Shown here: positions 3,532 to 32,660 of the stretch, in pieces
How the letters are laid out: the number at the start of each line of letters is the position of its first letter
How positions within the stretch are numbered: the stretch's first letter is position 1
DNA from: Nitrospira sp.
GTDB taxonomy: Bacteria; Nitrospirota; Nitrospiria; Nitrospirales; Nitrospiraceae
DNA: 64,000 nucleotides
Assembly (NCBI GenBank): GCA_029194665.1
Contig: JARFXO010000006.1
Coordinates: 124,001 to 188,000, forward strand
Reading direction: 5' to 3'
Made by a program: the position numbers and the translations under genes
Notes under the pieces: generated by a model
Database searches by the model: none
What the model saw: the letters and a program-made list of their open reading frames with translations, nothing else
What the model was told of the DNA's origin: nothing

Positions 3532-4074
3532 ATGCTAGTATGTGCAGCGATCAGCAAGGACTCCTCGACCGCACACTCGATGCAACAAGCACACGATTCC
3601 CACTACATGGAGCTGGCGCTTCAGCAGGCGAAGCTTGCAGCGCCGATCGGGGAAGTCCCGATCGGCGCAGTCCTCGTGCACAACCAGGAAGTGATCGCGG
3701 CCGGTCACAACTACCGGGAAATTTCGCAGGACCCGACAGCGCATGCGGAAATGATCGTGATCCGGAAAGCGGCTGAACGGCTGCAGACATGGCGCCTCAC
3801 TGACACAACATTGTACGTCACGCTCGAACCCTGCCCGATGTGCGCTGGAGCAATAATGCAGGCCCGCATCGCGCGGCTTGTGTTCGGGGCTTGGGATCCC
3901 AAAGCCGGAGCTTGCGGATCGATCTTTGACATTCCAGCCGAGCGCCGACTCAATCACCGAGTGCAAGTGTTGGGAGGCCTGCTCGAACAGGAGAGCCGCG
4001 AGCTCCTACAGAAGTTCTTTCGAGCTCAAAGAAGTGCTTTTTCGGAGAGCGCTCCCCCAAAGTCGACCGCCTAG
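3532..4074 (+). CDS. tadA: tRNA-specific adenosine deaminase
   Basis: TadA converts adenosine 34 to inosine in tRNA-Arg(ACG), allowing wobble decoding. The zinc-dependent deaminase signature is complete: HAE at residues 71-73 (His ligand and catalytic Glu) and PCPMC at 100-104 (two Cys ligands). The C-terminal region (GACGSIFDIP, then NHRVQV) is typical of TadA. The product is 180 residues from ATG 3532; ATG 3580 would give 164, closer to the usual 150-170, and no ribosome binding site decides between them. It lies alone on the plus strand, 119 bp after the anti-sigma gene. The SRP RNA that sometimes neighbours tadA was not found. Confidence 0.93.
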   Translation: MLVCAAISKDSSTAHSMQQAHDSHYMELALQQAKLAAPIGEVPIGAVLVHNQEVIAAGHNYREISQDPTAHAEMIVIRKAAERLQTWRLTDTTLYVTLEPCPMCAGAIMQARIARLVFGAWDPKAGACGSIFDIPAERRLNHRVQVLGGLLEQESRELLQKFFRAQRSAFSESAPPKSTA

Positions 4075-5886: not shown

Positions 5887-6816
5887 ATGGGTGCTTGGGA
5901 TTTTGGAACAATCGTGAGATTTCTCACATTATATGTCATGGCCTTGATCTGCCTACCACTCGCAGGCTGTTCGCTGATCGAGTCGCCGAAGGAAGGAACG
6001 AAGGCCCGCTCCCCTATTCCTGCTCAACCAGCAAGCGTGAACGTAGCGAGCGAAGACAATTACACGGAATCGTGCCGCGCAAAAGGTGTTCCGGTTCCAC
6101 CTGATTGGAAGCAGTCTTCATCTGAATGGGAAAGTCACGGCAACCTCAGCACCATATTGTTGACGCCGAATACGCTGGAAAAGGTTACGGTTGATGAAAC
6201 AACGTTCGCGAGCGTCTGGTCGTACGCCTCGCCAGATGTGAGAGGTGCTTGCATTGCGTTGGGAAGGAATGGCGGATCGTTCCAGGTCATCTGTCAGAGC
6301 GCCACGACCGGGTACGCCTGTTTTTGGGGGAACAATCCTCGCTCACCAAGCACAAGCTGGAACCCAGAGACGGCTCAAGTTTCCATCGCCTCACTCAACG
6401 ATCCGGCCCAGGGATTTGCTGTGGACACCGTGCCCTGTACGGAATGCCACCGCGGGAACAACGTCTTCTTGTATGGGCCTGACGATCCCACATGGGCAAC
6501 GGTGTTGAGACCGGAACATGCGCGCCCCACATTTACCACTCGCGTCGAGCACTCGTTAGACCACGGACAACTCACGTTCGGCGCGACCACAACTACCTAC
6601 CCACGCTTCATCCCCATCGGAGGAAAATCTATGACCCTGAACAATCCGCTGCCGACTACGCCAGGCTGTTCAGGATCCTGCCACGAGTCTCATTTCGAGA
6701 TCCTCGAAAAAAATCATACGGTCGAAGGATACGTGCGGATACCGCGACCCATGGGTCCCAAGTGCGCGGCCGACTCCCCGCCGGATGACCCGACAAAGAA
6801 TTGTTATCAACATTGA
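5887..6816 (+). CDS. Secreted lipoprotein with c-type heme motifs
   Basis: Start ATG 5887 is chosen because AGGAAG at 5874-5879 is spaced 7 bp from it; a GTG at 5881 is too close. A signal sequence ends in the lipobox LAGC with the lipidated Cys near residue 28, so the protein is exported and membrane-anchored. CTECH at about 184-188 is a standard CxxCH heme c site. CSGSCH at about 261-266 is a CX3CH variant that may or may not bind heme. Cysteines at about 63, 122, 136 and 145 suggest disulfides. I do not recognise the family. A periplasmic electron-transfer or redox-sensing role is inference. It sits behind a consensus promoter and is convergent with the cytochrome cluster downstream. Confidence 0.7.
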   Translation: MGAWDFGTIVRFLTLYVMALICLPLAGCSLIESPKEGTKARSPIPAQPASVNVASEDNYTESCRAKGVPVPPDWKQSSSEWESHGNLSTILLTPNTLEKVTVDETTFASVWSYASPDVRGACIALGRNGGSFQVICQSATTGYACFWGNNPRSPSTSWNPETAQVSIASLNDPAQGFAVDTVPCTECHRGNNVFLYGPDDPTWATVLRPEHARPTFTTRVEHSLDHGQLTFGATTTTYPRFIPIGGKSMTLNNPLPTTPGCSGSCHESHFEILEKNHTVEGYVRIPRPMGPKCAADSPPDDPTKNCYQH

Positions 6817-7996: not shown

Positions 7997-8191
7997 TAAT
8001 CGACGCTCCCCGGTTGACCCTTGCTACGATGATGGCCCCCTAGAACCTTCGTGATCCCCTCACGTTCGGAGGGGACTTGAGAATCGACACCCAAGCCTCA
8101 CGACATGTGATCTCAAGCGGATGAGGCCAAAGCCACACACACACGAGCTGCTAGATTGTGGGGCACCGTTGCTTCCGCGATCGTGCCGCAC

Positions 8192-8776: not shown

Positions 8777-9090
8777 AACATTCCCTCCTTCATTGGATTA
8801 TTCATCGACTTGGGATCACGCTGGTGTTTTCCCAGCGTGGTTCTGGACCGACCTTGCCGATTGCAGAATAGGGAATCATCCGTGGCACAGACAGTGATGG
8901 CGGTAGACTGATTACGGGCGGAGCTTCTGTGACGACCTTGCTCGTTCCAAAGCCTCTTCAATGAGAAGAAACTGCCGGGCGCGAATAGATTCGCGTGGGA
9001 ACTGAGATCACATTGGTTGGTGCTGAGACTACCACGATACCTGGCGTACGCGGTGAAAGGGATGAGGAGACTAGCAATCACAAGTCTCAT
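8734..9090 (-). CDS. Doubtful small exported ORF
   Basis: An open frame of 118 residues starting at ATG 9090, with AGAGG 6 bp upstream and a short hydrophobic N-terminus (MRLVIASLLIPFTAYA). Beyond that the sequence has no recognisable domain and an odd composition. Its 3' end overlaps the well-supported gene at 8192-8776 by 43 bp, and that gene's strong ribosome binding site lies inside it. It may be a remnant, a leader ORF or a chance frame. I keep it only because of the ribosome binding site and signal-like start. Confidence 0.2.
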   Translation of the reverse strand: MRLVIASLLIPFTAYARYRGSLSTNQCDLSSHANLFAPGSFFSLKRLWNEQGRHRSSARNQSTAITVCATDDSLFCNRQGRSRTTLGKHQRDPKSMNNPMKEGMLCLENISYPTRPSA

Positions 9091-9470
9091 CACGCACCTC
9101 TTCGCAGATCGTTAGCCTAAACCTCTGTTGAGCACAACGTCAAGGAAGATTGTCGGACCCTGATAGGAAGACTCGCCAAGCCGTGAAGAAAGGGACGGCA
9201 TCACCCAACGCGATCATGGAAACGTTGAGCAAGCTCCAACCGTTGCTGTAGCCCCGCTGGTGCCGCCGACCGGGTCCGACGAATTCATCTTCCCCACCCA
9301 CCGCCTCGGCCTTACCGAAGCCGAAGCCATACGCCTGTTCTAGGCCCAGGTTGAACTCATCCCCTTCTCTCTCATAATCCCAAACGCTCACACGCTGGAC
9401 GCCGTTGAGGAAAGGTCTTGACTGTATTCAAGGATGAGCAGCGTGGCGAAGGATTCGGCATTGTGCTAGG
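9091..9470. other. Non-coding stretch, 380 bp
   Basis: No supported gene. A plus-strand phrase near 9275-9340 (SDEFIFPTHRLGLTEAEAIRLF) reads like protein but is bounded by stops and not recognised; it may be a decayed gene. The stretch ends at the toxin-antitoxin promoter region. Confidence 0.4.
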
Positions 9471-9512
9471 ATGACCATGTCAATGGTCAGATTCAAATCA
9501 ACGAGGTACCGC

Positions 9513-9743
9513 ATGCAAACCGTCAATGCCTCCACATTCAAGGCCAAATGTCTCGCCTTGATGGATGAGGTGGCGCGCACCGGCAAGCCTCTGTTAGTCA
9601 CGAAGAATGGGAAGCCGATTGTCGAACTACGGCCCCATGCCGGTAAGCGGCCACGGTCGCCTTTCGGCATGCACAAAGGATTGATTGCAATCAAGGGCGA
9701 CATCGTCTCGCCGATCGATGTGGAATGGGAAGCGCTCAAATGA
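9513..9743 (+). CDS. Type II antitoxin, Phd/YefM family
   Basis: A 76-residue antitoxin if ATG 9513 is the start, chosen because the phrase MQTVNASTFKAKCLALMDEV is the normal Phd/YefM N-terminus and GAGG lies upstream; ATG 9471 would add 14 unlike residues. The N-terminal DNA-binding half is followed by TKNGKPIVELRPH, the family hallmark, and a C-terminal tail that should wrap the toxin. Its stop overlaps the toxin start (ATGA). The complex normally represses its own promoter. It lies at the edge of the mobile-element region. Confidence 0.88.
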   Translation: MQTVNASTFKAKCLALMDEVARTGKPLLVTKNGKPIVELRPHAGKRPRSPFGMHKGLIAIKGDIVSPIDVEWEALK

Positions 9744-10141
9744 TCCTGCTTGATACCCATGCCCTGGTGTGGATGGACACCGATGCCTCCGATTTGGGTC
9801 GCACAGCTCGTCACCTCATCAAACAGGCGTGGCGAGTTCAGCAACTTGCCGTCAGCGCGGTCAGCTTCTGGGAGTGCGCAATGCTGCACGCACGAGGACG
9901 CATTATGCTTCCAGAATCGCCCGCATCCTGGCGCGCAGATTTGCTGCAAGCCGGCCTGATTGAGTGGCCGGTCGACGGCGCCATCGCCATCCTCGCTGCG
10001 GATCTTGCCTCGCTTCACAAGGATCCCGCTGATCGCTTCATTGCCGCGACCGCTATCGTGCATCGCGCGACGTTGATGACCGCAGACGAACGCCTCCTTG
10101 AATGGCAACACACCGTGAGGCGGCACCACGCAGGTCGATAA
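9740..10141 (+). CDS. Type II toxin, PIN-domain ribonuclease (VapC family)
   Basis: A 133-residue PIN-domain protein starting at ATG 9740 in the ATGA overlap with its antitoxin. The acidic metal-binding residues typical of VapC are present: LLDTHALVW (first Asp), SFWECAML (Glu), DPADRFIAATA (Asp) and LMTADERLL (fourth acidic site). The protein therefore looks catalytically intact. VapC toxins cleave tRNA or rRNA. The pair, PIN toxin with Phd-type antitoxin, is a common plasmid or chromosomal stabilisation module. The gene is followed directly by a degenerate IS256-type transposase. Confidence 0.9.
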   Translation: MILLDTHALVWMDTDASDLGRTARHLIKQAWRVQQLAVSAVSFWECAMLHARGRIMLPESPASWRADLLQAGLIEWPVDGAIAILAADLASLHKDPADRFIAATAIVHRATLMTADERLLEWQHTVRRHHAGR

Positions 10142-10175
10142 GCCCATAAGCTCATGCCGTTGGACAACGACTTGG

Positions 10176-11265
10176 ATGAAGCACCGTCTGTTGCGCGGGA
10201 ACGATCAAAGAGGTCAGGAGCCCTTTCTGACCAATGGAGGCCGATTCATAGAGGCAATGTGGCAAGCTCGAACCTCCTCCTGCGCCATGCACGGTGCAAG
10301 GTCAGACCCCAACGGGGGCTTCGGCTGCGTTTCCCCCGGCGTGTTTTCCGAGGAACTGCTAGAGAAGATCCTCCGGGCCGTATCCGTCCAGAAATATGCC
10401 GACACCGTCCTTGACGTGGCGCACGCTATTGGCGTGTCCCCTACCGAGATCTCGCCAAAAATCGTGGAGCTGACGGCCGCGAAGCTGAAGGAGTTTCAAC
10501 AGCGATCACTGGAGACTTTCAGACCATTTGCACTCTTCCTCGACACGATCCACCGAGGTGGTGAGGCGGTTCTTGTGGCCCTGGGGCTGGACATGGCCGC
10601 GGAGAAGATGGCCCTCGAGTTCTCGCAGGGGTCCTCAGAGAATCAGGAAATCTGCAAAGCCCTGTTCAGGGGACCTGGATCATCGGGGCTCGGCATTCTC
10701 TCGACGGATCCTCTTCGTCACCGATGGCGGCAGGGGGCTGATCAAAGCACTCCGGGCCAGATTCGGCAAGAAGCTGGTGCATCAGCGCTGGACCATTAGA
10801 TAAGAGCCGGAACCTCCAACGGCACCTGACCAAGCCCTCTCGCCGCGAGGCGCATTGGCGACTCATGACAGCCTTGGAGCAGACACGTTATGCCAACACC
10901 AGGCGGATGCTCCTGGAGTTGGAGGGGTGGCTGCGAACCACGAACGAGTCGGCGGCGAAGTCGCTCCGGAAAGCTTTCGAGGAACTCTTGGTGCTTCATT
11001 GGCTCCAGATGCCGGCCGTGCTCCGCAAGACGCTCCCGTCCACAACCCGATTGAGAGCATGTTCTCGTTGGTCCAGCACAGCGAGCGGAACATCAAGCGA
11101 ACACGGGGCAGCCTCATGCTGCAGCGATGGTTGGGGACCGTGCTGCTCGCCTGCGAAGGCCGGTTCAGGAAGGTGAACGGCGATGCCCAGACCGTACAGG
11201 TCATGGAGATGATTGAGGCTGAACAGGCAGAGCCGCAACCGGCTTCGATGAAGAAAGCGGCGTAA
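10176..11265 (+). pseudogene. Degenerate IS256-type (mutator) transposase
   Basis: Transposase-like protein is spread over at least three frames. The first part (about 10290-10670) includes RGGEAVLVALGLDMAAEKMA, the second (about 10660-10800) DGGRGLIKALRARFGKKLVH, and the third continues from about 10805 with RLMTALEQTRYANTRRML. A final change of frame near 11040 gives NPIESMFSLVQHSERNIKRT and KVNGDAQTVQVMEMI. These phrases are typical of mutator/IS256 transposases. At least three frameshifts destroy the gene. Terminal inverted repeats were not identified. The remnant borders the toxin-antitoxin pair and marks the start of the transposon-rich region. Confidence 0.8.
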
Positions 11266-11468
11266 CCATAACCATGGAGCGGCTCAGAAAATTTCAACGG
11301 ACATCTTGATAATTCCACGCGGAACGCCATCCATCAGAACAGCATATGCGATCGTCCAATTGATTCAGCTTCTGGCGTGACCCTTACAAGCTCTTGTGAA
11401 GTGGTACGATTTATGACCATACGCAACTCAGGAAATCCTCACACCTCTGTATTAGGAGAGTAATAATT

Positions 11469-12356
11469 ATGACTCCCAGACTTCTTCATATTCTCGTATG
11501 CGTGGCGGCTCTATTCAGTGCCCTGTTCTTGGCGCAAGCCGTTGATGCTCAAGAGCCGACGAAGTCTGAACCCACCTATGCATGGCAACCAGGGCCGTTT
11601 GAAGCCCAGTTGGGAGATCAAGCCACACTCAAGGTGCCTGAGGAATTCGTATTCTTAGGGCCTCAAGATGCACAGCGGCTCTTAAAAGATATGGGCAACT
11701 TTCCATCTGGAGAAGAATTGGGACTAGTCGCCGGTGGTTCGGAGGGGGAAAATTGGTTTGTCGTCATCCGATTTATAGATGCCGGCTATGTTCAGGATGA
11801 CGATGCCGCAGATTGGGATGCCGAGGAGATGTTGGCCTCAATCAAGGAAGGGACGGAGGAGGCCAATGCAAAGAGACGAGAGAGTGGGATCTCCCCGCTG
11901 ACAATCCGGGGTTGGGAGGAAAAACCCCATTATGATAAGGCGAATAACAAGGTGGTGTGGGCAATTTCTGCTGACCAAGGGCAGGAGGCCATCGCCAATT
12001 ACAATACCCTGGCACTCGGGCGACATGGATACATGAGCATGAATCTTGTCGCGGATCTCAATCAATTGTCCAAACTGAGAAACTATTCTGCTCTGCTCCT
12101 CTCCAATCTCAATTTTGTGACCGGCAAGCGATATGCTGATTTTAACAGTACGACGGACAAAGTGGCGGCAGTTGGCTTGGCGGCACTCGTGGCTGGCGCG
12201 GCGTTTAAATCCGGGCTGCTGGCAAAACTGCTCGTGCTGCTCATCGCATTCAAGAAGGTCATTGTGATCGGCGCCGTCGGTATAGCCGCATGGGTGTGGA
12301 AGCTCGTCAAAGGACGTTCATCACCCAAACCGAACCGGCAGAGTACGGAGCTATGA
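11469..12356 (+). CDS. DUF2167 membrane protein
   Basis: A 295-residue protein of the DUF2167 family. It has a Sec signal peptide (VAALFSALFLAQAVDAQ), a large soluble domain with YAWQPGPFEAQLGDQATLKVP, then WFVVIRFIDAGYVQDDDA and NYNTLALGRHGYMSMNLV, and C-terminal hydrophobic segments at about 230-275. AGGAGAG at 11454-11460 supports ATG 11469. The 3' end overlaps a site-2-protease-type gene (ATGA). The family's role is unknown; a membrane-stress or processing partnership with the protease is inference from the overlap. The flanks are transposon remnants, yet this pair is intact. Confidence 0.85.
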   Translation: MTPRLLHILVCVAALFSALFLAQAVDAQEPTKSEPTYAWQPGPFEAQLGDQATLKVPEEFVFLGPQDAQRLLKDMGNFPSGEELGLVAGGSEGENWFVVIRFIDAGYVQDDDAADWDAEEMLASIKEGTEEANAKRRESGISPLTIRGWEEKPHYDKANNKVVWAISADQGQEAIANYNTLALGRHGYMSMNLVADLNQLSKLRNYSALLLSNLNFVTGKRYADFNSTTDKVAAVGLAALVAGAAFKSGLLAKLLVLLIAFKKVIVIGAVGIAAWVWKLVKGRSSPKPNRQSTEL

Positions 12357-13057
12357 AGACGCTCCTTGCCCTGCTGGCAGGCGCAAAGTTCGGAAAGGTC
12401 TTACTGACATCCGGCACGATGCTGTTGTCAGTGGTGACCTATAGTTTTCTCTACGGGTGGTGGTACGCCACGGGACTGGTTGGTCTGATCTTCTGCCATG
12501 AAATGGGCCATTTTGCTGCGGCTCGTCAGCGGGGATTGCACGTTGGAGCACCAACCTTTATTCCCTTCGTCGGAGCATGGATTCAGTTAAAAGAGCAACC
12601 GATGGATGTCGAAACGGAAGCCTATGTGGCGATGGCTGGCCCAGTGGTCGGGACGTTCGCGGCCATGGCCTGCTACTATGCAGCCGACTTCTACCAGAGC
12701 CCACTATTACGGGCGTTGGCCTATGCCGGACTTATGCTAAACCTGTTTAACCTGATTCCCTTATCCCCTCTTGATGGCGGACGAATTACCTCAATAATTT
12801 CTCCTAAAACCTGGTGGATTGGGGCCCCCATGATTGTTATGCTCTTCATCTGGAATCAGAGCCCAATGCTTTTGTTGGTGGCTCTCCTGGCGATACCCCA
12901 CTTGCTCTCGACATTCCGACAAAGCGAATCGTCCTTACCTGCACGATATTATGCTGTGCCTCAATCCACGCGGTGGAGTTATGCGGCCTACTATCTGTTA
13001 CTCACAGGATTTCTCGGTGTGATGACCTACGAAACTCATCGGGCAGTCGGCCTCTAA
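12353..13057 (+). CDS. Site-2 protease family intramembrane metalloprotease
   Basis: A 234-residue polytopic protein starting at the ATGA overlap with the DUF2167 gene. The zinc motif HEMGH lies at about residues 49-53 inside a membrane segment (FCHEMGHFAAARQRG). The third ligand region NLIPLSPLDGGR is at about 132-143. Both match M50/site-2 proteases, which cut membrane-embedded substrates. There is no PDZ domain, so this is the short form. About six hydrophobic segments are visible. The substrate is unknown; the co-translated DUF2167 protein is the obvious candidate partner. Confidence 0.88.
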   Translation: MKTLLALLAGAKFGKVLLTSGTMLLSVVTYSFLYGWWYATGLVGLIFCHEMGHFAAARQRGLHVGAPTFIPFVGAWIQLKEQPMDVETEAYVAMAGPVVGTFAAMACYYAADFYQSPLLRALAYAGLMLNLFNLIPLSPLDGGRITSIISPKTWWIGAPMIVMLFIWNQSPMLLLVALLAIPHLLSTFRQSESSLPARYYAVPQSTRWSYAAYYLLLTGFLGVMTYETHRAVGL

Positions 13058-13188
13058 CCGAATCATCTTCGCCAAAGCTAAGGAGTAAGAGTTCTTGTTT
13101 ACACCTAAAAAATAGGTGCGCGGTCTGCGGGTGTTCTTGACCAGAAAGTTACGGTGCGGTGATAGGAGATCTAATTGGATCAGACGGT

Positions 13189-13208
13189 TTGTTGGACATG
13201 TCCAACAA
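13189..13208. repeat. 20-bp perfect palindrome, copy 1
   Basis: TTGTTGGACATGTCCAACAA, identical to three other copies in the window. It lies 114 bp before the RAYT pseudogene start. Downstream sequence is partly similar to that after copy 2: CGATTGCTGAAA begins exactly 70 bp after the palindrome end in both. Confidence 0.9.
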
Positions 13209-13322
13209 GTCTTAGTCACCCCCTAAGATCAGGATCTGGCTAAACCGGAATTCTCTAGTCACATCGAGGGTGGTCGACGATTGCTGAAATGACTATTGCT
13301 TGCCTTCCATGGTGAACGCCTC

Positions 13323-13950
13323 ATGCCTCGCATTCCTCGCGGATCCAGCGCTGGCCACGTCTATCACGTGTTGAACCGTGGCAACGGTGGAGCCGTCGTC
13401 CTTCAGAAGGACGCCGACCATGCCGCCTTCCTCGATCTGCTCGAGGCAGCTAAAGTCCGACATCCCGTCATGATTTTCGGCTTCTGCCTGATGCTCAATC
13501 ATTTTCATCTGGGTGCAGTAAGCCACCAAGGCAACCCTCAGCCCGTTCGTGTAATGGTGAATGACCAGTCATGTCCGATACTACCATCTGCACTACCGCA
13601 GTCATGGACATGTCTGGCAAGATCGCTTCAAGAGATTTCCCATTCAACAGGACGATCATCTACTCACCGTCCTGCGCGATATCCTGCTTAATCCCGTGCG
13701 TACCAAGTTAGTCGATCACGCTCGAGGGTGACGCTGGTCGCATCCACACGTCCCACCACTCACCGATCCCCCTCCCCATCTCAGTGCCGACGGAAGAGCC
13801 GTTCTTACTCGACCCGCCACTCTCGCAGACTGACCTAATCACCCTTCGTACCTGCCTGAATCGTCAGCAGCCGTTCGTTGAGCGGACCGGCAAGCAGGAA
13901 TAACCGCCATGCTCGACCTCTCGTCCACACTGCGCCGGAGCCGCTTAGTC
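13323..13950 (+). pseudogene. Degenerate REP-associated tyrosine transposase (RAYT)
   Basis: The first frame begins MPRIPRGSSAGHVYHVLNRG at ATG 13323 and reaches LMLNHFHL, the HUH metal motif of Y1 transposases of the REP-associated type. A frameshift near 13510-13560 moves the protein to another frame, with VRYYHLHYRSHGHVWQDRFK and LLTVLRDILLNPVRTKLVDH. After a stop near 13730, faint traces continue (LITLRTCLNRQQPF) to about 13950. The gene is therefore dead. Active RAYTs process hairpin repeats that flank their own gene. Here the same 20-bp palindrome lies on both sides (13189 and 14027), which fits that arrangement. Confidence 0.82.
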
Positions 13951-14026
13951 TGTTCGATTCAGAAGATCCATGGCCAAATCCGTGCGGCGTGACATGACGG
14001 ACATGATTGGCGAGAACCGAAGTGAT

Positions 14027-14046
14027 TTGTTGGACATGTCCAACAA
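14027..14046. repeat. 20-bp perfect palindrome, copy 2
   Basis: TTGTTGGACATGTCCAACAA, on the far side of the RAYT pseudogene from copy 1. The 80 bp downstream align without gaps to those after copy 1, with weak similarity that becomes exact at CGATTGCTGAAA. Confidence 0.9.
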
Positions 14047-14741
14047 GATGTCGTCTCCTCATGGTGTCATAACTTGGTCCAACAGTAATGGCATGATGAA
14101 ATTGTGGCCTCTCAACGATTGCTGAAACGGAATCTAACGGCTTGATCTATCCTCCGTAGCAACCTACGACAGACGACGGGGAACTGTGGCCTCCTACATG
14201 GACAGGCAAACAATTTTATCGATTCAAGATGCCCGCATCTCAGAGGCAGGGCCTGACTCGTGAGATCCGAACCTCGAGAAGTTCTGAATTGGAAGCGGTC
14301 TATCGTCGAATGCTGACAACCTTGATGCCGTTGAGATGAGACGACAGGCATCGATGGTCAGTTCAAATTCATCACTGAAAACATTCAGATAGTCCTGCAA
14401 CGTGAGAACGGAGGAATTGCCACTACTTCACGAGCCAGCAATTTGCGCTTGTTGCCCCTGCAAGCCTTGCTAACCTGCCTGACTTAAGCCACATCGCGTA
14501 CGCAACATTTCCAGCCATTCGAGCAACCCAGACCTCTCGCCTCACATTCATGATGGCCTCAGTTGATCTTGACTCACTTCTCACTCGCTCGTCGATGCCA
14601 ATATCCTACCCCTACAGTTCTGCCCTCCCTTATTGAGCCACGTGAGTGATGACGAGTCGCTGCTCAACCATCGTGTCGTACAACGAGAGTTCTATCCGAG
14701 AGAACTGGTCGCACTCGGACAGGCCACGTCCAGACCATGCC
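14047..14741. other. Non-coding degenerate stretch, about 700 bp
   Basis: All frames are interrupted and no protein family is recognised. Short protein-like phrases around 14590-14720 suggest decayed transposon DNA. I see no RNA gene or promoter of note. Confidence 0.4.
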
Positions 14742-14852
14742 GTAAGCAGCGATAATACTGCGAAGACCGAGGATATCCTTTCAACTCTAGGACCTGCTGA
14801 TCGGCCGAAACTCGCCTACCTTGGCTCGTTCCTATTTAGACTGGCACCGACC
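14742..14852 (+). repeat. Diverged second copy of an IS3-type element's 3' end
   Basis: This segment aligns with 32622-32733, including CCTTGGCTCGTTCCT, identical in both, and several shorter shared blocks (CCTTTC, CTGATC, GCCGA). The copy at 32.6 kb is the 3' part of an IS3-type transposase remnant; this copy has lost its reading frame. Confidence 0.5.
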
Positions 14853-14869
14853 GCCTGCGCTGTCTTGAC

Positions 14870-15660
14870 ATCGAGTCACCCCTAGAAGTTCGAGGTAGCG
14901 TCCGATTGGTATTTCGTTCACCGATACTCTGTGGGGCCGAAGTCGGTTGTAGTGGAATTCTCGCCCAGCAAACAGGACTGTCAGCAACGGATCCGGTATA
15001 TCCACGGTGGAATGGAATTCCAATCGGATCGGTATGCTGAGAACGTTCGACCTTGCCATTGAGATGAGGGGGTCGGGGACGAGTGGGCCGGACCTTATAC
15101 CAATAATGTTGCAGCGCCTCCTGGAACGTCTCAAAAACTGGCCACCGCGCTCTGTTTGCACCAGCCGCATCGAAAGCGTAGCCCCTTCGATGACTCGATG
15201 CCTCAGGCAACCGAATCACATTGGTAGCGATACGATCGAGATACAGGGCAATAACCAGCCTGTGCGCGCACTCGTCAATGGCGGCATAACTAGAAGAGGC
15301 AGGCCCTGACCTTCATCGTATCGGCCTGCAGGCGATTTCCAGTCACCGGACAGCTATACCAACTGGGACTCTCCTGTGGTCGTCTGTGAACCATCGAGGC
15401 CCGCTCATGAGCCTGGAGGACCTTCCGAATCGCTTCAGTGGCCGACCGAACAATGTGAAGACGAAGCAATCCTCCTTGAATGCGTTCAGAATCAAGTTTA
15501 CGTTCATCGTGCAAACCGAGGGTCAGATCCGCGTGGCTCCGATTCAGGACGCGACGAGACGGACGATGCGATCTCTGCTTCAGGCTCTCAGGTTCCGCAT
15601 CCTTACTCACCGGAAAACTCTCCCCCCCACAGCTGTACGGCTGGGCGACTGATGCCGCAA
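14870..15660 (-). pseudogene. Degenerate IS481/integrase-core transposase
   Basis: On the minus strand, fragments of a DDE integrase-core transposase occur in order. SERIQGGLLRLHIVRSATEA and GNRLQADTMKVRACLF fall at about 15600-15300, FETFQEALQHYWYKVRPTRP and HLNGKVERSQ at about 15130-15050, and GREFHYNRLRPHR near 14960. The phrases PHLNGKVER and FHYNRLRPH are the late hallmarks around the catalytic Glu. They are spread over several frames with stops between, so the gene is inactive. The family could be IS481 or a relative in IS3; IS481 fits the lack of a programmed frameshift better. Confidence 0.65.
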
Positions 15661-15822
15661 TATAGGCAGAACCAAAACCCGTGTCCTTGCTTGCGGCATA
15701 GGGCTGAACCCACACCCATCTGTATAAAAGTCCTTCGCGATCGCCATTCATGGAGCTGGAACACACCTAAGTTTATTGAAAGGATGCGTGTGACCCTGAC
15801 AGATCAGAGGCAGTTAAATGTT

Positions 15823-15842
15823 TTGTTGGACATGTCCAACAA
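15823..15842. repeat. 20-bp perfect palindrome, copy 3
   Basis: TTGTTGGACATGTCCAACAA, between the IS481-type and IS1380/IS4-type remnants. Its downstream flank shares GCTCAT and TCAyGACTrAA with that of copy 4. Confidence 0.9.
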
Positions 15843-16034
15843 CATGCCCCCTAGCTCATGCATTCATGACTGAACCAGGATTCGTCAGCTGAGTGACGAT
15901 CAACTGGAAGCATCGTGGTGGACGGCGAAGATGGGACGGTTGTCTTAGTGGGTCCGCCTACCACGACGAAGCATTGGATATAGCGTAGGACTCGACGAGA
16001 TCCCACTCCGACCGCGTCGCAATCGGAATCCCGT

Positions 16035-16852
16035 CTAGAATGGCCTGCAGGTATTGATGACGCTCCGCCGCAACTGATTCGAAGGTCGTATCGGCCGCGT
16101 CGACCGATTGCGGTCAGAAGCGTTAAAACTCAGACCATCTTTTAGTTCCTGATCCAATGCTCGCTGTCCGCCTTGGGTCGTACATCTGCGCGGGATCAGC
16201 TCAGGGCTATAGAGAACACTGGCGACAAAGGACACAGTCTTCAGATCCGGGCGCTCAATCAGCCACCGCTTAATCGCCACGAACCACTCCATGAGTGACT
16301 GGCAGACACGCTGACCGGCGCCACTGTTCACGCCAGATCGGCAACAAGGTCGTCGCGAGCGAGCCACCGCAGACGACTGACCATAAGTCATTCTCTTGGA
16401 CAGGCTGCGCATCAGAATGATGGAGAAGGATCGCAGGTCTTCACCGTAGAGCAAGAAGGCCGACTCAAGGTATCCGACATCGGCCAGCACCAGACTGGTC
16501 CGAGGTCCAGTGGCCAGCAGCGCGAACGCTCGGGTCAAAAATTCATGCACGTCGTTTGCTGTACCAGTACGGTTCGTTCGTAACGTGGCCCACAAACGCC
16601 ATCGTTGGTCGCGACGCGCCCAGATGATCATAGGAGTGGTGGCCTGAGTTTCACCGACTTGCGGCTCTTCACACCGCCGGCTTCACCCGAGCGACAAAAC
16701 AAGAAAAAATTCAAAGCCAGACTATGCCCCAGCAAGGTCGGCCGCATGGTCACCAAGGCTTCCAAGACATCCGTGAGCCATCGATACTTAGGGCGTGGGA
16801 CGAGCTTCGCAACGCATGAAACTATGGAAACCGAGAGCGGCCCAACAGACAC
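16035..16852 (-). pseudogene. Degenerate DDE transposase, IS1380/IS4 type
   Basis: The longest open part (16035-16631) starts with RRDQRWRLWATLRTNRTGTA and continues DVHEFLTRAFALLATGPR and TSLVLADVGYLESAFL. This is the second catalytic Asp region of IS4-superfamily transposases, closest in my recollection to IS1380. A second minus-strand frame upstream (16628-16852) may hold part of the N-terminus. The C-terminal portion turns into unrecognisable sequence after SLSKRM, so the frame is only partly preserved. It is inactive as it stands. The exact IS family is uncertain. Confidence 0.55.
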
Positions 16853-17454
16853 GAGAGTAACGAATCACGCCGATAGCCGGTCAGCTGTTCAAACCGTTCA
16901 GCGCCCAGCTCCAGCCCCCACCTCCAAACCAGCAGCACCTCCACCGCGAAAATCTAACCATTGGAAGTCTTCACGAATGGATCGAGGAATGGCGCGAGCG
17001 TGACCCGCGGTCCAATCAGTTCGCAATGCAGTGGAAGTAGAATCACGTCAGCCTAAATCGTGATCGGATGGCGGGTAACCGAAAAGCGAATCTCGTGTAG
17101 AGCCGGGATGCGGAGACCTAACGGACAGGCATGCCAAACCTCCTGCGCCTGTAAGAAGATTTGAATGCCGATCCTACATCAAGATCGATCAACTGCGGTT
17201 AACAATATCCAGCGCGAGGAGCGGTGTCGGATAGTCGAGACGTTCGATGAAGATACCCAACGGCGCACCCAACCGACCGCATTTCCCACTCACCGCGAGG
17301 TGCCCGAATACACCAGGTAATGGGCCTTCATGGACGGCTCGATGCGATGGAGTGGCATCGGTCGCGGCAATGGAGTACCTGTTGGCTCGGCTGTCACCTA
17401 TACGAACAGGTAGGACGTGATCGTTTGTGGCATGTACGTCTACCTCGCTGTCGC
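16853..17454. other. Non-coding degenerate stretch, about 600 bp
   Basis: No supported gene on either strand. It probably contains the decayed N-terminal parts of the two flanking transposase remnants, which point away from each other. No terminal repeats were found. Confidence 0.4.
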
Positions 17455-18570
17455 GAAGGCATCGGTCGGCAGAACAGCCTGCAGACGCTCGCGCAGTACC
17501 GCTTGCTCGATCTCGGCAGCGAATGACGCCTACACCGACTGCGGTTTGAGCAAAGCGCCGTGGACGATCTGCCAGACACGAACCTTCGGCTCGTGGAAAA
17601 TAATGCGCTCTATCGTTACCTCGACAAAGTGCTGCCCATAAAATGGCGTTGTTCCATCATCTGACCGTGCCATGGCATGACATCTTCAGCGATCAATTCG
17701 ATGTCCTGCTCTACGACCCGGCCAGCCCCTCTTTCGAATCGCCACCACCGAAAGACGAGAGCGACGAGCTCCGCCATGGTTCCTATCGCGATAAACGCTC
17801 TGACTGCACCCAAGTCGTCATCGCTTTGATCGTCACCCCGGACGGGTTTCTTCTCGCCTACGAAGTGCTCTCCCGAAACCCCACCGACAAGACCACACTC
17901 AAGTGATTCTTGTAGTAGATTGAGACGCAATATGGCAAAGCGGAACGAACCTGGGTGATGGATCGCTGCATTTCCATCAAAGAGGTGTTTGCGGACAGGC
18001 AGGCAGGTGCCCCTCGTCTGCTGTCGGTTGACACACCCAAGGCCAGGCTCACCGAACTGGAGCGCGATCTCATCCCTTTGCCTTGGGTCTCGGTGCACCA
18101 GGGCGTCAATGGAAATCTGTTGCAGCAAGCGAGCGAACGGTCCCTGTTCGTCGAAAGTCGCGATCGCATCCACAAGAAACGCACCGTGTGTTGGCGGCTC
18201 ATGAAGCTTGTGAAGCAACTAAATCAATTCGAGCTGATGCGGCTCAAACTCGGTACGGCCAAGCGACGCGGATGGGCCACCTGAAGCTTGATGGAAATCA
18301 CCCCTCCCCTCAACCGGCGACCTCAGACACCTTATTCAATGAGGGAGCACTCGGAAGACTCTTCGCCAAGTGCGCCGGTGCGAAGGCGGCTCTCTATTGC
18401 GCACCAATCTCTGTGAGCGAGACCACGAAGATCTCTGGCAACTCGATATCCAGCTCACCAAGGTCGAGGCGGCTTTCAAAACCATACCGACGATCTACCA
18501 CTGCCCCCTACCTACCACCAGCTCGAGCACCTGTATGGCCTCTTGCCCACACATCACCTTGAGAGCACAT
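17455..18570 (+). pseudogene. Degenerate IS1634-type transposase
   Basis: Protein-like pieces in consecutive order but different frames belong to one transposase. They are LDLGSE, a stop, then FEQSAVDDLPDTNLRLVENN (17505-17600); YRDKRSDCTQVVIALIVTPD and LLAYEVLSRNPTDKTTLK (17785-17905); WVMDRC with the stretch LFVESRDRIHKKRT (17955-18190); and SLLRTNLCERDHEDLWQLDI with IQLTKVEAAFKTI (18390-18490). The phrases RDKRxDCxQVVIALIVTP, WVMDRG and QLTxVEAAFK are typical of IS1634/IS4-like DDE enzymes. In-frame stops and several frameshifts make it inactive. Confidence 0.75.
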
Positions 18571-19013
18571 TGAAAGTTCTTGTTGCCGGGCCCCCCATGT
18601 CGTGCCCAACAATTTCTCCAGTCTCCAGATGCTCAACTCCAATTTCTCAACCACTGATAGTCGCAACTGTTCATGGACCGACTCATGCTTACCTTCCACC
18701 CATAACCCCAACCGCGAATAACCACCGCTGGCCAGTTCGTGCCCTGAGCGTACTATTGTAGTGGAGATCCGATTGTCTCATTGTCCATTTCATGCTCCGT
18801 CTGGACGGATTAGCCGTTCCAGTTGATACGGTTCGTCTAGGTCGTGAGAAGTGATAAGGAATGGTACGGCGTTTTGTTGGACATGTCCAACAACAAGTCC
18901 ACCCGCTCATATTACTCACGACTAAATCTAGTTGGGATGGCAGGAAGCGATTTGATACCGATCTGAAAAGCTAGTGGGTGGCAAACGACTACGGTGTCAT
19001 GAGTGATCGCCCT
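18571..19013. other. Non-coding stretch containing palindrome copy 4
   Basis: No supported gene. The only clear structure is the palindrome at 18874-18893; a CTGAAA block lies 70 bp after it, echoing copies 1 and 2. The stretch ends at the parB terminator candidate. Confidence 0.4.
18874..18893. repeat. 20-bp perfect palindrome, copy 4
   Basis: TTGTTGGACATGTCCAACAA, 171 bp past the parB stop codon. It is the last of the four copies and the nearest to the parAB pair. Confidence 0.9.
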
Positions 19014-19050
19014 CCCCCTCCCCTTCCCTGGCTAGGATTAGGAGAGGGGG
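19014..19050 (-). terminator. Possible terminator downstream of parB
   Basis: Arms at 19014-19023 and 19041-19050 pair over 10 bp on the minus-strand transcript, with one G-U pair and a 17-base loop. There is no U-run, so factor-independent action is uncertain. It lies 14 bp past the parB stop. Confidence 0.35.
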
Positions 19051-19063
19051 CAGTGACCGTGGA

Positions 19064-19999
19064 TTATTGAAAAATGATTTGATCAATTTGACATTGGCGC
19101 GCTGGGACTTCCTCCTGCTTTCCATCCGTAAAATGTACGATCAGGTGATTGGGTTGCTGCGGAGCTTTATGCAGATCCACCGTTCCTGATCGATCTTGAA
19201 AGATGATGATCAACGAAGGCATCGTTGTCGACGGACTGAGCAGCTGCTCCTCGCTCCCCTGCTCAACTTTCGGCGAGGCGCTGTTTGATTTTCGTGGACC
19301 TCTGAGTTTGGCGGACAACGCCGACACCGTCGCACGTGTAATCTCCTGCGTGGCGGTGCACCACCGTTCGACATCCTTCGGAAACTCCTTGTGCAGGTTC
19401 CGCAAATCGTAGAGCGTCTTCGCTGAGAGACATTTGCCGGACGTATAAATCTCCTCAATGCAACCAGGAGGATCGATGAGCGCTAAATGATTCGTGACCA
19501 TGGACCGATTCACACCAAGGAGTTCTGCAATTTGCGCCTGCTTCTCCCCTTCATCCATCTTTCTTTTGATAAACATCGCCAGTTCACGAGGTTTAAGATC
19601 TTCCCGCTGCAAATTCTCGATGACTTGCTGGTAATCGGTATGCGACCGATCGACGAACGCGGGAATCGTGGGTTTCCCGGCAGATTTGGAGGCCCTGAGT
19701 CGGCGTGCTCCAAAATTCAAGATCCATCGCTTCTGCTCGGTGGGGTGCGGACGGATCGACACAGGAGTTTTGACTCCGTGCAGTCTGATACTGTTCTCCA
19801 ACTCCTCCATACTCGCCGCATCGAATTCTTGGCGTGGTTGGGCTGGATCTTCATCAATGTCCCTGACCGGAATTTGAAGCGGGCGCCCTAAGACTTCAGC
19901 CGCCACGGTCCGTTCTTTGGCGATCGGATCGGGAGTGGGAGCAGAAGCGGTACGATCAAGAGCCGTGAGATCCAGTGTCGCTGTGATTGGTTTTTTCAT
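19064..19999 (-). CDS. Plasmid-type ParB/KorB-like partition protein
   Basis: A 311-residue ParB-family DNA-binding protein. The N-terminal ParB nuclease-like/CTPase domain is present: VRDIDEDPAQPRQEFD at about 45-60, LHGVKTPVSIRP at 73-84, FGARRLRAS at 96-104, and ENLQREDLKPRELA at 128-141. A helix-turn-helix follows at about 153-174 (KQAQIAELLGVNRSMVTNHL). After a low-complexity linker, the C-terminal SH3-like region (VDLHKAPQQPNHLIVHFTDG) resembles KorB of IncP plasmids more than chromosomal ParB. The gene overlaps parA by 4 bp. It should bind palindromic sites and act with the adjacent ATPase in segregation or repression. Its presence suggests an integrated plasmid or ICE. Confidence 0.85.
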   Translation of the reverse strand: MKKPITATLDLTALDRTASAPTPDPIAKERTVAAEVLGRPLQIPVRDIDEDPAQPRQEFDAASMEELENSIRLHGVKTPVSIRPHPTEQKRWILNFGARRLRASKSAGKPTIPAFVDRSHTDYQQVIENLQREDLKPRELAMFIKRKMDEGEKQAQIAELLGVNRSMVTNHLALIDPPGCIEEIYTSGKCLSAKTLYDLRNLHKEFPKDVERWCTATQEITRATVSALSAKLRGPRKSNSASPKVEQGSEEQLLSPSTTMPSLIIIFQDRSGTVDLHKAPQQPNHLIVHFTDGKQEEVPARQCQIDQIIFQ

Positions 20000-20778
20000 T
20001 CTATAACCCCCATCGTATGAGCAACTTTATGAAAGATCGGTTTGAGATGCATCCACGCATCTCGTGAACTCGTTTTTTGCAATGTCCAGATAGGCGCGCC
20101 CATCGCCTGGGCTTCAGCCACAGCCGTGCGTGAGGGAATGGCGGCCATACGTCCATCATCCAGTCGAATGAACAGCGAGGCAAAAGCCGTACAGAGCTGT
20201 TCGAAATTGGCGCGTTGAAAGGGAGTGGGCTCCACAAGATTCGGAAGCAGACCAATGAATCGAAGATCTTTATTCAATGTACTTTGTATCTTTAAGACCT
20301 GCGCCCGTAGCGCGGCAATACCATCGACGGCCTCTTGATTCAATTGAATGGGTGACAACACAAAATCACCCACCACGAGCGAAGCAAGGACACGAATATC
20401 AGGGTTCGGATTCGTGTCAATGATAGCCACATCAAACCGGTCATCCATTTCGTTCAGGAAGAGTTTGAGATTCATGGCGAATTGGTTGTGATCTTCTTCC
20501 CGCCTTTCGAGTCTCAAGAGGTCACCGTGCGACGGGATCACTACGAAATTTCCCTCCTCAAGAGTCGTGACATGTTCGGTCAATAATTGGTGAGCTGTAG
20601 TTGCCGAGGTGGTCGCCAGGTTCGACATGATGATGTTTTTCGATGTGTTTCCTTGATGGTCCAAGTCAATGATCAACACTCGTTTCTTGAGGTATTCGAC
20701 GAGAAAGTACCCAAGTTGGCAGGCAATCGCCGTTTTCCCCACGCCGCCCTTCTGATTGGCTAAGACCAACGTTTTCAT
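19996..20778 (-). CDS. ParA-family partition ATPase (IncC-like)
   Basis: A 260-residue Walker-type ATPase. The deviant Walker A KGGVGKT is at residues 10-16 (the signature Lys is K10), LIIDLDHQGNTS is the Walker A' region, and FDVAIIDTNPNPDIR holds Walker B. There is no N-terminal DNA-binding extension, so autoregulation probably depends on its ParB partner. AAGGAG is 8 bp from the ATG. It is most similar in layout to plasmid IncC/ParA proteins paired with KorB. ParA moves ParB-bound DNA along the nucleoid. The chromosome's own parAB would normally lie elsewhere. Confidence 0.88.
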   Translation of the reverse strand: MKTLVLANQKGGVGKTAIACQLGYFLVEYLKKRVLIIDLDHQGNTSKNIIMSNLATTSATTAHQLLTEHVTTLEEGNFVVIPSHGDLLRLERREEDHNQFAMNLKLFLNEMDDRFDVAIIDTNPNPDIRVLASLVVGDFVLSPIQLNQEAVDGIAALRAQVLKIQSTLNKDLRFIGLLPNLVEPTPFQRANFEQLCTAFASLFIRLDDGRMAAIPSRTAVAEAQAMGAPIWTLQKTSSRDAWMHLKPIFHKVAHTMGVIE

Positions 20779-21113: not shown

Positions 21114-22142
21114 CTATTTTGGCGCGTGTCTACAAGCGCGTACCTCCAACTGCCGGATTCTATCTGGCTCCCTCGTTAGCCTTGCAGATGGTGATATCTG
21201 TCTTTTTGATGATCGTTCAAAGTTCTTCACGTGAGGCCATCGGATGAGACGATTCGCTTCGGAATGGTGTGTGGTCACGCATTGAGATGTTGCGAACTCT
21301 TGGCCTTTACCACGCTCTTGTGCCATTCTTCAAGAAGAACCAGCTTATAGGCGAAATAATCGCGATCGGCCGCATAAACGTGCAATTGCTCAACCGGCTT
21401 TGGCACGGTTCCCACCCCACACAGCAACGAGGCCCAGCGCTGACAGAGAAGAGGAGTGCTGTCGCGCCAGAGCGGCAATGGCCCTGGAATCGATCCCACC
21501 GGACAATGCCACTCCTACGGGGACATCAGAACGGAGAGTCAACTTTACGGCCTCTTCCAGGGCTTCACGAATGCCGCGCAGCATACCGGGACTATCCATC
21601 GGCAAGCCGCTGATTTTCGGCGGCTCCTCTACAGTCCAGTAGCGCAACGGTTCGGCAAACCAGTGATCAAGCGACAACATGAGCGTATGACCTGCCGGAA
21701 TTTTCTGCACACCTTGAAGCAGGCTCAACGGCTCAGGGACATACTGATAGTGCAGGTACATATCTACGACCGACGGGTCAAGCGCCGGGCTTGATGTCAG
21801 CATCGGCAGGAGTCCCTTTAGCTCCGAAGCAAACATGAGACACTGATCATCCCTGTGATAGAAAAGAGGTTTTTCTCCGCAGCGATCGCGCGCCAGGAAA
21901 AGGCTTTTCTCTTCTCGATCCCACAGTGCGCCCGGAAACATCCCGCGAAAATGCGATGCACGCTCACGTCCCCAAACCTTATACGCGGCCAGGAGAACTT
22001 CGGTATCAGAATTAGTGACAAACCGTTCGCCTTTGGCTTGGCGGAGAGAGAGAATCCTGGTTAATAAACGTAGGTATAAATATGTCATATCCACAAGTCG
22101 ATGAAGCATGAGATGAGCTGGATCGTCAATGGTGGATGGCAT
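21114..22142 (-). pseudogene. Truncated, frameshifted asparagine synthetase homolog
   Basis: The open part (21390-22142) carries the second half of a class II glutaminase domain (FVTNSDTEVLLAAYKVWG, then ARDRCGEKPLFYH), a linker (VDMYLHYQYVPEPLSLLQGV) and the start of the synthetase domain with the PP-loop VALSGGIDS. The N-terminal catalytic Cys segment is missing. After SGGIDS the frame is lost; a different frame (21114-21326) holds GQEFATSQCVTTHHSEANR, which resembles the following part of the domain. The gene therefore looks like a fragment with both ends lost. Such enzymes also act in polysaccharide or lasso-peptide loci. It borders the parAB element and may mark an insertion or deletion edge. 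Confidence 0.75.
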
Positions 22143-22277
22143 TTGTTACAGCCTCACGCCGCCGGCTATTGACGGGGCCATTGCTGGACAACCGGCGCGG
22201 AAGAATCTTCCACTTCCCCGCCCTTCATGTTCTGGATCCATCCCGGTACAATAGCACGTGCTTGATCAAGGATGAGT

Positions 22278-23246
22278 ATGACCTTCACTCCAGCCCCCTT
22301 CTACATTCTCTGCGGTTCGCTTGGTGCCGGGAAGACGACGCTCTTAATGCGGCTGCTGGAGTATTGGAAGGCACAGGGCCGACGAACCGGCGTGTTGATG
22401 AACGAGGCAGGGACCGTCAGCATTGATGGCCCTCGGGCCGGAACGCTCGCCGAACAAGTCATGAACCTCGCCGGGGGCTGTGTCTGCTGCGACACGAAAG
22501 AAGATCTCTCCTGGGGGATTGCGCAGCTGGTGCGAGATCATGGATCGGATGTGCTGATTCTGGAATGCTCAGGCCTCGCCGATCCGGCTGAAGTGATCGA
22601 TGCGGTGACTGATGCCTATACGGCCCGGTTGGCTTCTCTTGAACGAGTCATGGCCCTTCTGCATCCGGTATCGGCGGAGGAAAGTCACTCCGCCGCCTAT
22701 GTGACGACACAAGCCATCCGTTGTGCCGATGAACTGATCTTGAACAAGCGGGACCTCTATGTCCCAGGCCATTGGGAGCGGTTCCGTGCCGCCATCCTCG
22801 AACAAAACCCCTATGCTCGCCTATGGGAAACGTCGCACGCGCGCCTCGATGCCGCCGACCTGTTGGCTCCGCATCCCTCACCGAAACCAGCAACTCCTAC
22901 CAATGTGCAATTCAGTAAGTCGCGAGTTGCCTCACATCAGCGAGCGCCCTACCATCCCATCGCGACCACGATCCCGTTGCCCGGCCCGCTCAATCGTCGG
23001 AGGTTTCTGGCCTGGATCAAAACCTTCCCAAAAGAACTTGAACGGGCGAAAGGCTATTTCCGATTCGCGCAGGAACCGGAGCTGCAGGAATTCCAGTATG
23101 CGCCGCCGGGGCAGGCCACAATCACACCGCTCACTCTCTTGGATGAACCGGAGCCGACGCTGGTGCTGATCGGGAGGGGATACGATGTGGACCGTCTGGG
23201 GGCTGAGCTCTTAGCCACGGTGGAACACCACCAGAGGACTTCGTAA
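22278..23246 (+). CDS. CobW/COG0523-family GTP-binding protein
   Basis: A G3E-family GTPase of 322 residues, a type that supplies metal or cobalamin to target enzymes. Walker A is GSLGAGKTT at about 13-21, the metal-binding GCVCC is at 67-71, ECSGLADPAEV corresponds to Walker B, and NKRD at 156-159 is the guanine-specificity motif. The C-terminal CobW domain is recognisable but short. ATG 22278 is favoured over ATG 22272 because AAGG directly abuts the latter. The metal partner is not visible. The stop is 3 bp from the convergent PAP2 gene's stop. Confidence 0.85.
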   Translation: MTFTPAPFYILCGSLGAGKTTLLMRLLEYWKAQGRRTGVLMNEAGTVSIDGPRAGTLAEQVMNLAGGCVCCDTKEDLSWGIAQLVRDHGSDVLILECSGLADPAEVIDAVTDAYTARLASLERVMALLHPVSAEESHSAAYVTTQAIRCADELILNKRDLYVPGHWERFRAAILEQNPYARLWETSHARLDAADLLAPHPSPKPATPTNVQFSKSRVASHQRAPYHPIATTIPLPGPLNRRRFLAWIKTFPKELERAKGYFRFAQEPELQEFQYAPPGQATITPLTLLDEPEPTLVLIGRGYDVDRLGAELLATVEHHQRTS

Positions 23247-32127: not shown

Positions 32128-32660
32128 CGTCGCCAAGCGAAATGAGTTCGTCGTGCAGCGGATTCTTGCCCTGAAAGCCGAGCATCCGCTCTGAGGCTAT
32201 CGAGGCATCCGGACCCAGCTACAGGTTACTGCGGCTGATGCAGGCCTATGGGTTGCTGGTGGAGCAGGTGGGTTGGACCTACTTTGTCCTGGTCCTGAAT
32301 TGCTACACGAAGAAGATTGTCGGCCACGATGCTGGGAGGCAAATAAAGCACACTCACTGGCTCCCGGCGCTGGAGCAGACGTCACAACACCAATGCCCGG
32401 CGGGGGTCCAGGCTCAAGGGCTGTCATTGATGAGCGACAATAATCCGAACGGGAACACCGACATAGAACGACTCATGCGGACGCTGAAGGAAGAACTCCT
32501 CTGGCTCCGGAAGTGGACGAGCGCTCCGGACCTGGAACGCGTCCTGGCGGCGTGGGTCGATTTGTACAACACTCGGTACTTGCATTCGACTCCCGGGTAT
32601 CGGAGGCCGTGTCAGTTCAAACAAGAACATCGAGCTACTGTGAAGATCGCAGACAGCCTT
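32128..32660 (+). pseudogene. Degenerate IS3-type transposase (internal deletion)
   Basis: The upstream frame gives FVVQRILALKAEHPL, then a stop and GYRGIRTQL, the IS3 OrfB N-terminal helical region. After a frame change, VEQVGWTYFVLVLNCYTKKI starts the DDE core. QGLSLMSDN then joins directly to NPNGNTDIERLMRTLKEELL. In intact relatives roughly 30 residues separate these two motifs, so the second Asp and the segment before the catalytic Glu have been lost or joined. The C-terminal DLYNTRYLHSTPGYRRPCQF is typical. It is inactive. Its 3' end has a diverged second copy at 14742-14852. Confidence 0.78.

Follow-up and report, generated by a model that had tools for sequence, protein, structure and literature searches.

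The window analysed here is a stretch of 64,000 nt of a Nitrospira genome (C6:124001-188000 of a 4.8-Mb assembly in 17 contigs). It carries a parA-parB pair on the minus strand, both ORFs lying where a sequence-only reading, made without database searches, had placed them, with the proposed overlap of 4 bp. An ATGA overlap is kept in all 33 related loci measured (one of which is a duplicate). The features of the locus are collected in Table 1. ParA matches the AAA_31 profile (1e-30), and ParB those of ParB_N (1.4e-16), KorB (3e-14) and HTH_ParB (2.7e-6).

Table 1. Features of the partition locus and its surroundings, in window coordinates.
Feature	Position	Strand	Basis
tadA, locus marker on parS side	3532..4074	+	marker search
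lipo15, locus marker, without family match	5887..6816	+	marker search, profile scan
Candidate parS site 4, GTTGGACATGTCCAAC	13191..13206		palindrome search
Insertion-sequence remnants between candidate parS sites, outside the partition system	13296..17906		weak profile matches
Candidate parS site 3, GTTGGACATGTCCAAC	14029..14044		palindrome search
Candidate parS site 2, GTTGGACATGTCCAAC	15825..15840		palindrome search
Candidate parS site 1, GTTGGACATGTCCAAC, 172 bp past parB stop	18876..18891		de novo palindrome scan
parB, KorB-like, 311 aa	19064..19999	minus	ORF, domain profiles, KorB structure match
parA, IncC-like, 260 aa, Walker A KGGVGKT	19996..20778	minus	ORF, profile match, plasmid matches, tree
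Asparagine synthetase fragment, decayed, outside the partition system	21390..22142	minus	profile match
CobW-family GTPase, parA-side neighbour, locus marker	22272..23246	+	marker search

ParB consists of an N-terminal LDLTAL peptide, a ParB_N domain with R100 and N129, a KorB DNA-binding domain and an SH3-like C-terminal domain, and its best solved relative is KorB of RK2 (7e-42; profile 9.5e-46). A study of that protein (PMC11790492) describes it as a CTPase that is stimulated by its operator and closes to form a sliding clamp; in it, R117 serves CTP binding, N146 hydrolysis, and an N-terminal peptide interacts with IncC. By hand count along the KorB alignment, R117 and N146 correspond to R100 and N129 of the window's ParB, both invariant in 21 of 21 orthologs, and the N-terminal LDL-x-x-L peptide is also present in PromA KorBs. 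The N-domain was assigned by sequence, its model being poor, and the C-terminal domain by fold only. In a model built from an alignment of near relatives (mean pLDDT 59; residues 1-120 poor), the predicted DNA-binding domain resembles KorB 1r71 (Z 17.1) and the predicted C-terminal domain KorB-C 1igq (Z 8.9, rmsd 1.3 over 53 residues); this fold agrees with the KorB-like C-terminal region that had been proposed. The synonymous positions of parB codons 29-44 (window 19868-19915) are unusually conserved (z about 3.4); the block is not palindromic and was rejected as a hidden site. Little common sequence beyond the ribosome-binding region was seen upstream of parA in the portion of the alignment inspected.

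A search of 72,556 plasmid records returned, among the best 20 matches for each protein, pIPO2T, pTer331, pSB102 and similar plasmids, at 55-57% identity over 67-70% for ParB and 57-58% over 99% for ParA. These three named plasmids are PromA members according to PMC4290620, and the remainder were assigned to PromA by similarity. PromA plasmids gave the nearest sequences found for either protein; compared with five PromA-type plasmids, identities were 54-58% for ParA and 37-53% for ParB. In trees of both proteins, the Nitrospira chromosomal copies and a plasmid-like contig (G104:C7) form one group with 100% support. The ParA tree makes this group sister to PromA IncC (92%), while in the ParB tree the IncP/IncU and PromA proteins fall together (84%) with the Nitrospira group beside them. 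The proposal of a plasmid-type IncC/KorB pair is borne out by this phylogeny, which places ParA and ParB with PromA proteins and not with chromosomal ParB; judged from these sequence comparisons, the plasmid origin of the pair is firm and the exact donor is not.

The resemblance to PromA plasmids (pIPO2T, pTer331, pSB102, pSN0729-70) extends to gene order, the tight coupling of the genes and palindromes within and after korB. However, the window's system is chromosomal, korA, ssb, mobC, relaxase, rep and tra were not found alongside it, and its ParB is shorter (311 aa in Nitrospira versus 360-381 aa in PromA). RK2 KorB/IncC shares the domain architecture, the CTP-site residues and the DNA-binding and C-terminal folds, but its operator is absent from the window and KorA was not found. 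Five KorA queries gave no korA beside the pair in any of 32 loci at 1e-3, the three PromA queries having found a control plasmid that the IncP and IncU queries did not; as korA is a feature of the plasmid operon, its absence is filed as a variant.

In 32 distinct loci, the region from 2.5 kb before to 3.5 kb after parB was scanned for perfect inverted repeats. The palindrome GTTGGACATGTCCAAC was recovered de novo in 30 of them and was present in every locus with at least 790 bp of sequence after parB; in the other two, the contig ends about 634-637 and 32-35 bp beyond parB. Most other frequent palindromes occur at one fixed coding position, and are explained by protein conservation. The sites are always on the parB side, at varying distances, in the loci examined: the first exact copy lies 148-175 bp after the parB stop in 23 of the 30 loci, and at 258-2070 bp in the other seven. 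GTTGGACATGTCCAAC sits within a 20-bp palindrome, TTGTTGGACATGTCCAACAA, with variable flanks. When two mismatches were tolerated across the 32 loci, 63 sites proved exact and just 2 differed at one position, the flanking bases varying. A repeat finder run over 17.5-22.5 kb of the window showed site 1 only within one weak inverted pair.

The four GTTGGACATGTCCAAC sites of the window are the only ones in its genome, and a search that tolerates one mismatch in the 14-bp core finds one further place in 4.8 Mb. Across 79 genomes of the genus, 78 sites occur in 36 genomes, against 0.07 expected (uniform base use) and 0 for the reversed control. They are found in 35 of 37 genomes with this ParB versus 1 of 42 without it (Fisher 7e-19, uncorrected for relatedness), the sole such non-carrier, G106, having its site and lipo15 on a 4.7-kb contig. 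Among the genomes listed (all but G129 and G130), nearly all sites are on the contig of parB; the exceptions are on G073:C46 (three sites) and G128:C165 (one site), along with the site of G106. The RK2 operator TTTAGCNGCTAAA was tried as a partition site and rejected, with 0 occurrences in the window at two mismatches (0.96 expected) and 3 one-mismatch places in the genome versus 26 for its reversed control. The palindromes that PromA plasmids repeat are likewise other than TTTAGCNGCTAAA, which is therefore taken as a mark of the RK2 branch and not of the family.

Palindromes occupy comparable places on the plasmids. TTGGTCATGACCAA occurs three times in each of pIPO2T and pTer331 (inside korB, downstream, and within traN) and TTCGTCATGACGAA twice in pSN0729-70 (inside korB and downstream), while pSB102 has two imperfect copies at the korB places and one perfect copy at 18.7 kb. 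The PromA palindromes thus stand in and after korB, whereas GTTGGACATGTCCAAC in Nitrospira is downstream of parB only. On G104:C7, TTGGAACGTTCCAA is found 76-89 bp past its parB and again 1.1 kb further. Between the PromA, G104:C7 and chromosomal palindromes the place and partly the arms are kept and the remainder is changed, and the PromA and G104:C7 palindromes are probably bound by their own KorB/ParB. Those repeated in and after korB of the PromA plasmids L079-L082 resemble KorB/parS sites; the word parS is absent from the two PromA papers searched for it, PMC4290620 and PMC9499019.

G104:C7 shares with the chromosomal copies one tree group, a palindrome after parB, and PromA-like MobC and relaxase genes, but its ParB is 49% identical, its palindrome has the core ACGT and not CATG, and the contig has a recombinase and a Rep-like gene as well as another par pair. 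Beyond ParA and ParB, its matches to PromA ORFs are the relaxase, MobC and RadC. The stretch compared (L066, G104:C7:96500-116400, 3311-19083) has a PromA-like KorB/IncC pair, relaxase, NikA-like protein and RadC; the contig also holds an RPA-type Rep below threshold, a tyrosine recombinase, a further parAB close to a TGTTACGCGCGTAACA palindrome, and metal-efflux genes (L164).

Among 175 genomes of the family, ParB orthologs are 78-94% identical to the window's ParB (one is split over two contigs), and carriers, the window included, make up 37 of the 79 genomes of its genus. Outside the genus, the best match among those listed (E up to about 2.7e-15, a limit well beyond the orthologs) is 37% identical. 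An even draw of 395 Nitrospirota genomes from 169 genera, covering part of the genus, gave matches at 1e-40 or below only in the window's genus (28 genomes). Of 19 named loci, 18 are from Nitrospira MAGs, the other bearing the label Nitrosospira. In a tree of flanking proteins from 34 genomes, rooted at the midpoint, the 22 carriers included (of the 37) form one clade with 100% support, two basal nodes inside that clade having 41-44%, and the six outer genomes have no ParB. Clade members without the ParB are G116 and G117 (identical in flanking genes; 99% complete), G084 (96%), G074 (67%), G106 (83%) and G125. The simplest reading is one gain and a few losses; many of these genomes are MAGs, and counts across related genomes are not independent.

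Over the 32 loci, median dN/dS (Nei-Gojobori script) is 0.049 for parA (495 of 496 pairs) and 0.089 for parB (496 pairs), with median synonymous differences of 0.50 and 0.55. Both proteins, as judged from these alignments, are intact and under strong purifying selection. The sequence-only reading had seen in the pair a remnant of an integrated plasmid or conjugative element; a full candidate parABS, shared by nearly half of the genus genomes, confined to one clade and so constrained, corrects this, as it speaks against a remnant in decay. Matches to AMO occur in 28 of 37 genomes with the system versus 21 of 42 without (p 0.022, from incomplete MAGs and with no phylogenetic correction); the window's genome has one at C1:888606. 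A comammox link is suggestive only, as an association of the clade.

The genome also has a second ParB, at C1:193 kb, whose parAB is directly preceded by ORFs resembling YidC, MnmE, MnmG and RsmG (named by eye from their sequences). Two TGTTCCACGTGGAACA sites lie on C1, where the rsmG-like and parA ORFs begin, and this is the ordinary chromosomal parABS. The canonical chromosomal parS consensus is TGTTNCACGTGNAACA. Exact GTTTCACGTGAAAC was found in 0 of 79 genus genomes, the C1 system carrying TGTTCCACGTGGAACA instead. The likeness of the window's system to canonical ParABS (mnmG-rsmG-parA-parB) is one of general design and chromosomal place, but its ParB is only 30% identical to Nitrospira chromosomal ParB, its palindrome is different and so is its location. 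TGTTNCACGTGNAACA sites and clustering with chromosomal ParB are lacking, and no mnmG or rsmG adjoins the pair among the window ORFs, as had been noted earlier. The outcome that would have spoken against a plasmid-type pair, a ParB grouping with those of Nitrospirota in the sole parAB of the genome, was found in neither half, the pair grouping with PromA and a second parAB standing on C1.

The surroundings of the pair are chromosomal. Neighbour maps drawn from longest ORFs include spurious ones, and only markers rechecked by tblastn were used. CobW or lipo15 is on the parA side in 20 of 32 loci; on the parS side of these, where the sequence suffices, the radical SAM gene is found in 8 and tadA in several. 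In L056, as in the window, lipo15 is found on the parS side. In a second layout, seen in ten loci, the pair adjoins c36 and/or a transketolase gene, and six of these loci have the same radical SAM gene at a greater distance. In three loci a further, partial match to radical SAM lies on the parA side, and only the short locus L009 has no marker. In five second-layout genomes (L102, L110-L113), CobW, lipo15 and tadA stand together elsewhere without the pair, so that either the pair or the CobW-lipo15-tadA block has moved; with about a third of loci in the second layout, the place of the pair is therefore not fixed. The second-layout neighbour c31 is also found 9 kb from parB in G053, where it may be a paralogue, and hints at one ancestral neighbourhood. 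In the single-contig genomes G053 (4.13 Mb) and G115 (4.69 Mb), distances of 1.243 and 1.158 Mb separate the pair from dnaA. GC skew, sampled for G053 only, turns near 1.9-2.1 Mb, the terminus, which places the pair mid-replichore in that genome.

Chromosome-like genes among the window ORFs scanned encode TadA, DAHP synthase, RecO, an Era-type GTPase, enolase, GatB and an amidase. The asparagine synthetase gene proved to be cut, as suggested: a glutamine amidotransferase domain is present, but Asn_synthase is reduced to positions 2-44 of 354. Nearby transposase remnants had also been reported; they are recognisable weakly, as IS1634 (2.2e-13) and IS481 (1.9e-5 and 3.4e-4), all far below curated cut-offs, as are further matches to IS1380 (0.015) and a REP-associated family (0.05), and Pfam at 1e-3 gave nothing in four of the remnant ORFs. 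These remnants lie in this genome's version of a variable region downstream of parB. Contigs C1-C7 of the genome hold 17 DnaA-like ATPase ORFs of 269 aa and equal score, probably the helper ATPase of one high-copy insertion sequence.

Four sequence features of an IncC/KorB-type system are present: the three ParB domains, the CTP-site residues, an adjacent IncC-related ParA, and a palindrome near the operon that co-occurs with ParB. The best explanation, to which we give a probability of roughly 60%, is that an ancestor of one Nitrospira clade acquired, in a single event, a complete ParABS of the IncC/KorB kind from a PromA-like plasmid, and that it has been kept on the chromosome as a second working centromere. 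The identity and completeness of the system are well supported by the sequence comparisons, and its function in vivo as a second centromere is suggested by analogy with studied relatives. ParB would load at the one to four candidate parS sites as a CTP-dependent clamp and slide outwards, in the manner of RK2 KorB, and ParA would form an ATP-dependent gradient on the nucleoid and pull the ParB cluster. The locus, which lies at between one half and three fifths of the origin-terminus distance, would be positioned as a second centromere beside the ordinary parABS, its cargo being the chromosome itself, moved at a second point. Segregation is favoured over repression because the sites follow parB and are not at the parA promoter, korA was not found, and ParA is strongly constrained. 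Counting against a second centromere are the standard parABS with two TGTTCCACGTGGAACA sites already on the chromosome, the clade members without the system (G116/G117 and G084), and candidate sites that are few and span only kilobases, at a pair without a fixed place. The benefit may lie in the positioning of this region, in support for the main system or in hindering plasmids.

Interference with plasmids could by itself be the reason for retention, with the chromosomal ParAB and decoy parS sites hindering any arriving plasmid whose parS is the same. Incompatibility caused by partition is an established property of par systems, and PromA-like plasmids seem to enter Nitrospira, as G104:C7 indicates with its KorB, relaxase, NikA-like protein, tyrosine recombinase and sub-threshold Rep; G116, which lacks the system, has a second contig of 273 kb with an RPA-type Rep and its own ParB. 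Such exclusion is nonetheless unlikely: the core of the plasmid palindrome is not that of the chromosomal one, and G104 carries both a chromosomal system (C49) and the plasmid-like one (C7), so that the two look compatible and not excluding. A plasmid with the chromosomal parS was not found, and 15 viral contigs with the GTTGGACATGTCCAAC 16-mer show no ParA or ParB match in the stretches examined.

Slightly less probable again is a role as a long-range regulator, in which ParB clamps spreading from parS would silence genes of the variable region beside parB. Long-range silencing by KorB on RK2, described in PMC11790492, provides the precedent, and the candidate sites are on the gene-variable side of the locus. 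Against this, the KorA co-repressor was not found by the five queries above, and KorB F249, the KorA contact in the same study, corresponds by hand count to K231 of ParB (by eye, PromA KorBs also have no F there). No fixed gene follows the sites, none of which is at the parA promoter in the loci examined, and ParA is more constrained than ParB.

The variable region, the plasmid relatives and the two layouts would also suit a stabilising module of an integrated element that is still mobile and sometimes excises, and nine of the 32 loci have a thermonuclease-like match (35-39% identity) to a PromA gene beside repA, which belongs to a common gene family. This reading is disfavoured, and we consider it improbable. 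Among 162 PromA ORFs compared, matches in the window are confined to the ParA and ParB genes, and as queries they matched no replication-initiator or transfer gene in the flanks examined of the 32 loci; an antisense ORF overlap matches PromA ORFs in four. In a Pfam scan of 30 other window ORFs, the genes recognised were of housekeeping type apart from one integrase-core fragment of IS type (32238-32798); recombinases of the tyrosine or serine class, relaxases, Rep proteins and type IV secretion genes were not found in this set. Of the integrase and tra genes for which the flanks had been thought worth searching, these ORFs thus gave no site-specific integrase and no tra gene. Chromosomal markers adjoin it in 31 of 32 loci, and in G116 and G117, without the pair, about 260 bp separate lipo15 from the radical SAM gene, leaving no room for it. 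Although clade members without the system exist, a neutral relic is very improbable at a dN/dS of 0.05-0.09 and with nearly all sites exact while their flanks vary.

Returning to the capture of a plasmid ParABS as a second centromere, a bolder form of it is tentative, at somewhat less than even odds: both ParABS of these chromosomes may work as centromeres, the ordinary system closer to dnaA and one of plasmid descent kept mid-replichore for as long as the comammox-rich clade has existed, and the parS specificity may have drifted from that of the plasmid relatives, allowing chromosome and plasmid to coexist in one cell. It is usual to regard plasmid partition systems as a property of plasmids that would be expected to decay once chromosomal. 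Here, proteins and site are kept as a unit across a clade in which about half of synonymous sites differ between typical pairs; the system offers a natural example of a possible second centromere away from the origin. The related palindromes TTGGACATGTCCAA, TTGGAACGTTCCAA, TTGGTCATGACCAA and TTCGTCATGACGAA, with their matching ParBs, provide material for studying specificity drift, and the system is a marker for a comammox-rich Nitrospira lineage. It was not found among titles and abstract openings of open-licence PMC papers, a range that leaves novelty unproven.

Two minor observations concern the same elements in other settings. In G116 (L098, G116:C1:3583800-3603700), a genome without this parABS, an AMO-family gene is located within the corresponding locus, at C1:3593389, between the radical SAM gene and tadA. 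The viral occurrences of GTTGGACATGTCCAAC are judged near chance, given the size of the collection; two of the contigs, from one sample, carry 4 copies (L159, 395-2020) and 2 copies (L152, 6896-7849), flanked by C and G, which are perhaps operators of a phage repressor.
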